Shown: positions 30,551-31,452 of the stretch, one piece after another
How the letters are laid out: each line of letters starts with the position of its first letter
How positions within the stretch are numbered: the first letter of the stretch is position 1
IMG/VR virus record: IMGVR_UViG_3300020160_003070
Location: 1 to 36,258 of that record
DNA: 36,258 bases
Direction: 5' to 3' (one strand)
Origin: a virus
Program-made: the position numbers and the translations under genes
Notes under the pieces: generated by a model
Told to the model about the DNA's origin: nothing
Seen by the model: the letters and a program-made list of their open reading frames with translations, nothing else
Database searches by the model: none

Positions 30551-30838
30551 ATGATTGATCAATATGTAATTGTGCGAACTTACAGCGCGGGTGTATTCGC
30601 GGGATTTCTTGAAGCTTTTGAAGGTAAGCAAGCAACAATACGCAACGCTCGGCGTATATGGAAATGGGCAGGGGCAGCATCCCTTTCTCAGCTAGCCCAA
30701 ACAGGAACTAGCGATCCTAGTAATTGCAAATTTCCTGCGGAAGTTGACAGAATCATAGTCACTGAAGTGATTGAAATTCTGTCAGTGACAGAAATCGCGA
30801 AAGATTCAATCGCGGAGGTTGCTGTATGGAAGATCTAA
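30551..30838 (+). CDS. DUF6948-like conserved protein
   Basis: The 95-residue product has YVIVRTYSAGVFAGFLEAFE, ARRIWKWAGAASLSQLAQTG, CKFPAEVDRIIVTEVIEILS and a last VTEIAKDSIAEVAVW strand, the pattern of a beta-rich family often found in phages and plasmids. Function is unknown. AGAGGT precedes the ATG. It overlaps the start of the first Gly-repeat protein gene, and both follow the pseudoknot RNA copy A. Confidence 0.75.
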   Translation: MIDQYVIVRTYSAGVFAGFLEAFEGKQATIRNARRIWKWAGAASLSQLAQTGTSDPSNCKFPAEVDRIIVTEVIEILSVTEIAKDSIAEVAVWKI

Positions 30839-31053
30839 ATACTGACTATGGCTCTGGCGATGACTATGGCTCTGGTTCTGGTTCTGGTTCTGGTTCTGGC
30901 TATGGCGATGGCGATGGCTCTGGCTCTGGCGATGGCTCTGGCTCTGGCTATGGCTCTGGTTCTGGCTATGGCTATGGCTATGGCTCTGGCTATGGCTATG
31001 GCTATGGCTATGGCTCTGGCTATGGTTCTGGCGATGGTTGTGGCTCTGGCTAA
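30826..31053 (+). CDS. Gly-Tyr/Ser/Asp dipeptide-repeat protein 1
   Basis: The 75-residue product begins MEDLNTDYGSGDDYGSGSGS and is then almost pure alternating glycine with Tyr, Ser or Asp (about one Cys). At DNA level it is a run of GGY-TAT, GGY-TCT and GGY-GAT hexamers, so slippage would change length in whole codon pairs. Glycine codons are GGC or GGT only. It starts with the same MEDLNT as the second repeat gene. The composition suggests a flexible, sticky or metal-binding polymer segment; no signal peptide. Function unknown. Confidence 0.65.
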   Translation: MEDLNTDYGSGDDYGSGSGSGSGSGYGDGDGSGSGDGSGSGYGSGSGYGYGYGSGYGYGYGYGSGYGSGDGCGSG

Positions 31054-31070
31054 CAACTAATTCTTATACC

Positions 31071-31111
31071 CTTCCCCTACTGGAAGCCACATTCACGCGA
31101 TCAAGGGTAGG
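31071..31111 (+). ncRNA. Possible pseudoknot RNA, copy B (upstream of 31147 gene)
   Basis: Stem 1: CTTCC (31071-31075) with GGAAG (31082-31086). Loop CCTACT (31076-31081) pairs by CCTAC with GTAGG (31107-31111). The linker CCACATTCACGCGATCAAGG keeps the TCAC and TCAAGG bases of copies A and C. Sequence has diverged strongly while the two helices remain possible. An alternative outer stem TACCCTT/AAGGGTA also exists. CGCGATCGC follows. Confidence 0.45.
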
Positions 31112-31152
31112 CGCGATCGCATTATTAAATTATTTGGAGAGAGATAATGGAA
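31111..31152 (+). repeat. 42-bp leader duplicated at 31743-31784
   Basis: The sequence from the GCGCGATCGC box through ATTATTAAATTATTTGGAG, GAGATA, the ATG and the next bases is identical at 31743-31784. It carries the ribosome binding site (TTTGGAGAGAG) of the 31147 and 31779 genes, so both genes share one leader that probably arose by duplication. Both leaders follow pseudoknot-like copies B and C. Confidence 0.85.
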
Positions 31153-31452
31153 GATCTAAATACTGGCTATGGTTGTGGCTATGGTTCTGGCTATGGCTAT
31201 GGTTCTGGCGATGGCTCTGGTTCTGGCTATGGCTATGGTTCTGGCTATGGCTATGGCTATGGTTGTGGCTATGGTTCTGGCTATGGTTGTGGCTCTGGCT
31301 CTGGCGATGGTTGTGGCGATGACTATGGCGATGATTGTGGCGATGACTATGGCGATGGTTGTGGCGATGGCGATGGCGATGATTGTGGCGATGGCGATGG
31401 CGATGATTGTGGCGATGGCGATGGCTCTGGCTCTGGTTATGGCGATGGCTAA
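31147..31452 (+). CDS. Gly-Tyr/Ser/Asp/Cys dipeptide-repeat protein 2
   Basis: The 101-residue product begins MEDLNTGYGCGYGSGYGYGS. The first half alternates glycine with Tyr or Ser; the second half is Asp- and Cys-rich (GDDCGDDYGDGCGDGDGDDC). The shift from Tyr/Ser to Asp/Cys gives a clear functional polarity: an acidic, thiol-bearing end suited to metal binding. It is a paralogue of the 30826 gene with the same MEDLNT head. The gene has its own RNA leader. Function unknown. Confidence 0.65.
   Translation: MEDLNTGYGCGYGSGYGYGSGDGSGSGYGYGSGYGYGYGCGYGSGYGCGSGSGDGCGDDYGDDCGDDYGDGCGDGDGDDCGDGDGDDCGDGDGSGSGYGDG

Follow-up and report, generated by a model that had tools for sequence, protein, structure and literature searches.

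The Sm and LSm proteins of RNP granules carry low-complexity tails, which lie in cis and are usually RG- or Q/N-rich. In the Sm-like protein Hfq the tail is disordered and acidic, and its tip binds basic residues of the core, competes with nucleic acid and keeps DNA from aggregating (PMC5606850). A second bacterial Sm-like protein, Rof, is an inhibitor of Rho (PMC11018626). Here we describe a phage gene pair that resembles the first two systems in combining a protein of predicted Sm-like fold, DUF6948, with a low-complexity sequence, here termed GX (an ORF with alternating Gly-[Ser/Tyr/Asp]). Much as in Hfq, a core of predicted Sm-like fold is accompanied by an acidic and probably disordered sequence, and where the two are fused in a single ORF (L158) DUF6948 is followed by GX, again in the order core then tail; unlike in Hfq, the putative tail is in most loci a separate protein with strict Gly alternation, and DUF6948 has neither the N-terminal helix nor an Hfq or Sm sequence signature. 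GX also differs from the tails of RNP-granule Sm/LSm proteins in being acidic, with practically no Arg or Lys. Like Rof, DUF6948 is a small Sm-like protein and could likewise act by binding another protein, but we know of no repeat partner gene for Rof. DUF6948 is an already named Pfam family of no assigned function; its constant GX partner, the overlap of the two genes and the Sm-like fold appear to be undescribed, as a literature search on DUF6948 and the repeat motifs, to which most subscription papers were closed, found no description.

The window, by which we mean the whole stretch of DNA analysed, is a 36,258-bp virus record (IMGVR_UViG_3300020160_003070) whose host is very probably a cyanobacterium, because HIP1 sites (GCGATCGC) occur 56 times against 0.24 expected from base composition. 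The initial annotation of this DNA had reported two repeat ORFs at 30826-31452, both opening with MEDLNT and continuing as near-pure GGY-NNT hexamers, and the sequence bears this out (Table 1); Tandem Repeats Finder scores the two arrays at 223 and 264. Their glycine codons are GGC or GGT without exception, and the codons of the intervening residues (X) end in T at 35 of 37 positions in GX1 and 51 of 53 in GX2 (together 86 of 90), compared with a T-ending share of 64% in the other genes of the window (binomial p 2e-5 and 3e-8). The partner codons had been regarded as single-base neighbours, which is correct for TAT, TCT and TGT, whereas GAT is one step from TAT only and not from TCT or TGT. 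A Cys/Asp-rich tail had been placed at the end of the second protein; the stretch in fact lies in its second half, and the C-terminal end reads SGSGYGDG. The two proteins had been treated as isolated, and the main clue to their nature proved to be the 13-nt overlap of the first ORF with the DUF6948 gene upstream.

Table 1. Features of the DUF6948-GX module in the window (coordinates in bp)
Feature	Position	Strand	Remark
DUF6948 gene, 95 aa, Sm-like fold by prediction; partner of GX1, on its upstream side	30551..30838	+	PF22253
Overlap of 13 nt, DUF6948 3' end and GX1 start (ATGGAAGATCTAA)	30826..30838	+	sequence
GX repeat protein 1 (GX1), 75 aa, MEDLNT then alternating Gly-(Ser/Tyr/Asp/Cys)	30826..31053	+	same-start relatives in L003-L006
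Direct repeat of 43 bp, copy 1: leader and start of GX2, including the ribosome-binding site GGAGAGAG	31111..31153	+	
GX repeat protein 2 (GX2), 101 aa, tandem paralogue of GX1	31147..31452	+	no DUF6948 of its own
Protein of 72 aa, family unassigned, adjoining GX2	31477..31695	+	outside the widespread pair
Direct repeat of 43 bp, copy 2: leader of next gene (31779-32072)	31743..31785	+	
Whole block DUF6948-GX1-GX2	30390..31450	+	absent in L007, L008

The membership of the upstream gene in DUF6948 is clear (E 4.6e-29; 100.8 bits against a curated Pfam cut-off of 27). At its 3' end ATGGAAGATCTAA is the start of GX1 and at once the last codons and stop of DUF6948, and a Shine-Dalgarno-like GGAGG stands just 5' of this overlap; a search for a sigma-70-like promoter near the module genes found none. 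The two 43-bp repeats are exact and enclose GX2 and the 31477 gene, and the enclosed stretch is missing in the related locus L017. For the 31477 gene there was no match in Pfam, PHROGs or PADLOC, and three relatives were found in viral contigs.

A tblastn search with the repeat protein against phages gave no match, probably owing to low-complexity filtering that hides the repeat, and Pfam, PHROGs and NCBIfam hold no useful family for GX. Relatives were instead sought by the DNA pattern of the repeat and by way of the partner gene. The loci fetched with DUF6948 comprised 80 viral and 47 genome loci, and pairing was counted on the 125 with at least 80 bp of downstream sequence, a GX ORF being required within 250 bp. 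Such an ORF lies directly downstream of DUF6948 in 117 of the 125 (76 of 80 viral and 41 of 45 genome contigs), in a survey that is phylogenetically uneven, with 76 of 98 aligned DUF6948 sequences in one 60%-identity cluster and the rest in 12 others; the density of GX ORFs behind DUF6948 is 154-fold that elsewhere in the same loci. Of the eight exceptions, L019 carries an HNH-like ORF between the two genes, in L081 GX lies upstream of DUF6948, Gly-rich ORFs of variant form adjoin DUF6948 in L095, L111 and L133, the one in L024 is degenerate, and L139 and L142 have no GX-like ORF at all. In L019 the endonuclease-like ORF occupies +1 to +470 after DUF6948, as though the junction had been invaded by a homing element.

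An alternating-Gly ORF also stands directly beside DUF6948 in all nine named phage and plasmid records inspected; the phages, cultured or assembled, are unrelated, and the records include Chlorobiaceae phage CV-1-33, Iodobacter phage PhiPLPE, Pectobacterium phage Taid, Manatee Spring podoviruses, gut phages, Vibrio phage IKEMa6-1 and a Monoglobus plasmid. Some of these ORFs lack an annotation or carry one in the wrong frame, and in L012 and L014 the annotated frames over GX read MAMALAMA; simple repeat ORFs are skipped or misframed, so that a common phage gene pair has apparently gone unnoticed. The genome contigs are labelled as Cyanobacteria, Chlorobiota, Bacteroidota, Bacillota, Acidobacteriota, several proteobacterial classes, Planctomycetota, Chlamydiota, Patescibacteria and two archaea, labels that the binning of phage contigs into MAGs can distort. 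The pair also occurs in contigs of Neisseria gonorrhoeae and N. sicca (L140, L134), probably in prophages, and gonococcal plasmid-collection records carry DUF6948 in several places.

The reverse test, starting from the DNA pattern of the repeat in viral contigs, sampled at least 80 loci. Among the matches listed, DUF6948 was found within 700 bp at E <1e-3 in 45 of the 66 arrays with enough upstream sequence. Nine of the other 21 have a weaker DUF6948-like gene adjoining or near (E 9e-19 to 0.6; L153, L155, L164, L169, L196, L200, L208, L213, L215), and three have look-alikes recognised by eye (L165, L168, L176). Six are pure Gly-Ser arrays and were set aside as not GX proper (L166, L170, L172, L185, L203, L221), which leaves L179, L187 and L209 as real GX beside which no DUF6948-like gene was found. 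Taken together, a near-obligate partnership of DUF6948 and GX is strongly supported.

The junction of the two genes is itself conserved. In 78 of 116 loci GX begins exactly 13 nt before the DUF6948 stop codon ends, and 104 of the 116 show an overlap of some length. A Shine-Dalgarno-like element precedes the GX start in 49 of the 116, compared with 13% of random ATGs, a comparison in which the choice of start favours such sites. The motif M-E-x-[LIV]-[NK] at the GX start was considered as a docking motif and dropped, as the overlap accounts for it and it adds no evidence of its own: ATG-GAx arises because the TGG of the conserved DUF6948 Trp overlaps it, xTA-Axx because of the stop TAA, and the hydrophobic residue 4 of the leader because of the same overlapping stop codon. 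Overlapping genes are a sign of co-expression and not of binding. The two genes form a conserved module, and their products very probably act together, given the overlap and the existence of at least one locus with a fusion of the two; the tandem GX2, which has no DUF6948 of its own, counts against this reading.

The arrays themselves turn over. Relatives with DUF6948 95-99% identical carry different arrays of 67-85 aa, and L003 and L016 share an array and the same downstream flank, set apart by a single 6-bp unit and three substitutions; in L003, as in the window, DUF6948 is followed by two tandem GX genes, in L016 by one. The in-frame drift in length by hexamers that the initial annotation had proposed is supported by this clean 6-bp indel between otherwise matching arrays, and relatives vary in both length and sequence. 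The module as a whole is accessory, since L007 and L008 are about 95% identical to the window on both sides and are without the block.

The proposed free drift in composition, on the other hand, does not extend to the protein. In 110 arrays with 3,582 X residues, X is Ser (37%), Tyr (28%), Asp (22%), Asn (4%) or Phe (3%), while Lys and Arg together reach 0.4%, Ala and Cys 0.6% each and Leu, Ile and Val together about 0.5%. Cys being so rare, the Cys-rich stretch of GX2 is not kept in the family, and metal binding or cross-linking through it, as had been suggested, finds no support as a general function. Over loci of 31-70% GC the residue composition is tightly held though the codons differ: the Ser, Tyr and Asp shares are almost equal in loci below 42% and above 55% GC, and their sum is hardly correlated with GC (Spearman 0.18, p 0.07), whereas the third base of X codons moves from T to C (Spearman 0.54, p 2e-9). 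Serine is encoded mostly by AGY in nine loci and by TCN in 105, and as these codon sets are not joined by one silent change, serine itself is kept. A near-constant composition with third bases that track GC indicates that the protein sequence of GX is under selection and its codons are not. The family so provides a natural experiment on disordered proteins, in which about 100 loci differ in the order, length and codons of the array but have nearly the same residues in nearly the same shares.

These figures bear on two readings in which the protein would matter little. One takes the array for a by-product of slippage without function. Hexamer slippage is real and arrays do differ among close relatives, but the same three X residues recur in the same ratio over the whole GC range, the single-step codon neighbours Thr, Pro, Ala and His are nearly absent, and the pairing with DUF6948 is near-universal, so that we find this reading scarcely credible. 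The other holds that the array counts as repeated nucleic acid, for instance as a recombination site or a binding site for DUF6948. Third bases are exactly uniform within 78 of 102 arrays, as expected if arrays grow by copying hexamers as units; yet the same residues are written in different bases by lineage (GGC-NNC, GGY-NNT or GGA/GGG, with TCN or AGY serine), there is no shared nucleotide motif, and both the frame and the overlap at the start are maintained. That residues are conserved without shared codons largely refutes this second reading, which we regard as extremely improbable.

GX is acidic, with a median net charge of -7.5 and a maximum of +1. The order of X residues is near random, with slight avoidance of identical neighbours. 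As there is no strong shared period a solenoid was dropped, and we infer that GX is a disordered polymer whose composition matters. Calcium-binding RTX repeats (GGXGXDXUX, with a hydrophobic U) were rejected on the same lack of period and on the scarcity of Leu, Ile and Val.

The genes around the module include YqaJ exonuclease, ERF, RecT, RecE/Bet, SSB, RusA and DnaB, from which its setting is read as an early recombination and replication region. This setting also weighs on the idea that GX is a surface coat, fibre or silk-like structural polymer of the phage. Silk fibroin likewise alternates Gly strictly and has Ser and Tyr at X, but its X is mainly Ala, which is almost lacking in GX, where Asp is abundant instead; moreover, no signal peptide is visible, the pooled arrays have no period suiting a solenoid, and the genes lie among recombination and replication functions and not among tail or capsid genes. 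We consider a structural role very improbable.

Fusions add a second view of the family. Besides L158, the profile phrog_18306, of unknown function and not annotated in this way, apparently holds both parts in one protein: GX matches positions 66-141 (E 2.5e-4) and the DUF6948 protein positions 153-231 (E 3.7e-6), and on these weak matches it is apparently a further fusion. A conserved C-terminal domain of about 150 aa is joined to GX in elements of gut Bacteroidota and Bacillota, found in L116 (3501-3968), L113, L115, L120, L149, L207, L237, L249 and others, with FAHG and WHHxLTGSC motifs; it has no Pfam match, and its model (pLDDT 94.8) has no confident match in the PDB. Near the GX gene of L153 this domain is encoded by a gene of its own. 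Another domain, of about 60 aa with an AGACxDGV motif and no Pfam match, is fused N-terminally to GX in L191, L216, L219 and L164.

The partner protein is predicted with high confidence to have an Sm-like fold. The AlphaFold2 model of DUF6948 (98 sequences, pLDDT 98) is a small five-stranded Sm barrel, with strands at residues 5-10, 15-24, 27-35, 65-70 and 73-78. The best 50 Foldseek matches in the PDB are all Sm/LSm proteins or complexes containing them (best E 4.1e-3, probability 1.00), and the best 50 rows of VIA-align are all Sm/LSm (best Z 7.9, rmsd 1.9 over 62 residues); each score is modest, with the Foldseek E at 4e-3 and Z at 7.9, short of the tool's safe level, and it is the unanimity of all rows that makes the assignment convincing. 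In sequence, DUF6948 stands apart: the Sm2 signature (RG and then hydrophobics) and the D/N loop of Sm1 are absent, the Sm2-equivalent positions 71-76, as placed from strand order, read T/L-E-A-I-E-I, and neither the Pfam LSM search (at E 1e-3) nor a profile search against solved Sm sequences gave a match. The model begins directly with strand 5-10, and its terminal helix is C-terminal (81-89), so that the N-terminal helix of Hfq is absent. RNA binding is therefore not implied, since DUF6948 lacks the Sm2 signature, the Hfq helix and any match in sequence to a solved Sm protein. Residues R9, A13, G14, V15, G18, W39 and G52 are invariant and R34, R35 and K60 nearly so; these conserved basic and aromatic residues could accommodate nucleic acid or a partner that is acidic and rich in Tyr. 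For a family of no assigned function, the pair thus supplies a partner that is always there, a fold by prediction and a biochemistry open to experiment.

We propose, on the model of the Hfq tail (PMC5606850), that GX serves as a disordered acidic tail, encoded by a gene of its own, which modulates how the Sm-like partner binds nucleic acid in phage recombination or replication, a reading that we favour while putting it somewhat short of an even chance. The early two-gene module would supply a small Sm-like protein and a disordered, acidic and aromatic (Gly-X)n partner, the latter normally translated from a start codon that overlaps DUF6948, and GX would work as the Hfq tail does, but in trans. 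Its Asp and Tyr side chains may contact the conserved Arg/Trp surface of DUF6948 and so compete with, or loosen, bound RNA or ssDNA. As a result DUF6948 would be kept soluble and quickly released or, together with nucleic acid, held in a dense phase, in either case near the recombination and replication functions of the phage. On this proposal a loose order and easy changes of length are tolerated because only composition and alternation matter. Charge covariation between DUF6948 and GX was sought and not found (Spearman -0.10, p 0.28).

A close rival, compatible with the mechanism of a tail in trans, is that GX scaffolds a condensate. As a sticker-and-spacer polymer with Tyr stickers and Gly/Ser/Asp spacers it would phase-separate, and the Sm-like protein would bring phage RNA or ssDNA to it, creating a small compartment for recombination or transcription. 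FUS-type domains are marked by a [G/S]Y[G/S] pattern, and GX comes near to it in being both Tyr-rich and Gly/Ser-rich (Tyr 28% and Ser 37% of X, Gly at every second residue); the near-random residue order without a dominant period, the Arg and Trp of DUF6948 as possible partners for Tyr and the recombination genes near by also fit. Arrays of 23-124 residues (5-95% range) are, however, short for a scaffold, and a negative charge with almost no Arg or Lys would oppose self-association without a cationic partner. The low-complexity, potentially condensing protein envisaged in the initial annotation would be compatible with the data; we rate this reading as possible but rather unlikely.

Rof offers a different precedent, being an Sm-like protein that acts by binding a host enzyme (PMC11018626). 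By analogy DUF6948 might inhibit a host nucleic-acid enzyme or block a defence, with GX as its activator, as a DNA mimic or as a solubility partner. The accessory nature of the module, whose site is empty in close relatives, its early-region position and small size, and the ability of acidic repeats to mimic nucleic acid are all consistent with action against the host. PADLOC, on the other hand, has no match for DUF6948 or the 31477 gene, and the very strong conservation of DUF6948 (invariant R9, G14, W39) and its presence in elements of many phyla suit an internal phage function better than a changing arms race; we judge a role of this kind improbable.

Returning to the favoured joint action of an Sm-like core and its acidic partner, there is a reasonable chance that this module proves to be a kind of its own. 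The broader statement, that tailed phages have a hitherto undescribed two-protein system, near-universally paired, of an Sm-like protein and a purpose-made, composition-selected and disordered (Gly-[Ser/Tyr/Asp])n polymer that forms nucleic-acid condensates or serves as a regulated nucleic-acid chaperone for recombination, is made tentatively, and we think it on balance doubtful. Should the pair indeed condense or regulate nucleic acid, it would be a minimal, two-protein phage version of the logic of Sm proteins with low-complexity sequences in eukaryotic RNP granules, and hence a counterpart, in viruses of prokaryotes, of those assemblies.

Several further elements were seen around the module and elsewhere in the window. 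Pentapeptide-repeat genes recur near the module (L059, 4464-5843, and six other loci). Downstream of it in the window, at 32472-33874 and 34044-36064, lie a DUF5131 gene, a NUMOD4/HNH endonuclease and two DNA methyltransferases. In the subset of window proteins scanned, no phage structural family was matched. The virus record also carries, at 20305-24315, a gene set like that of Type IV CRISPR-Cas systems, with Cas11 (5.8e-13), Csf2/Cas7 (2e-43), Csf3/Cas5 (1.5e-46), Cas6 (PADLOC 1.5e-35, Pfam 2.5e-33) and a PAPS-reductase (CysH-like) gene; a direct-repeat search of 24200-26700 found no CRISPR array. Finally, two exact 24-nt repeats of GCGAATTCGT units, 41 nt apart, lie at 4981-5045 and may be iterons or binding sites.
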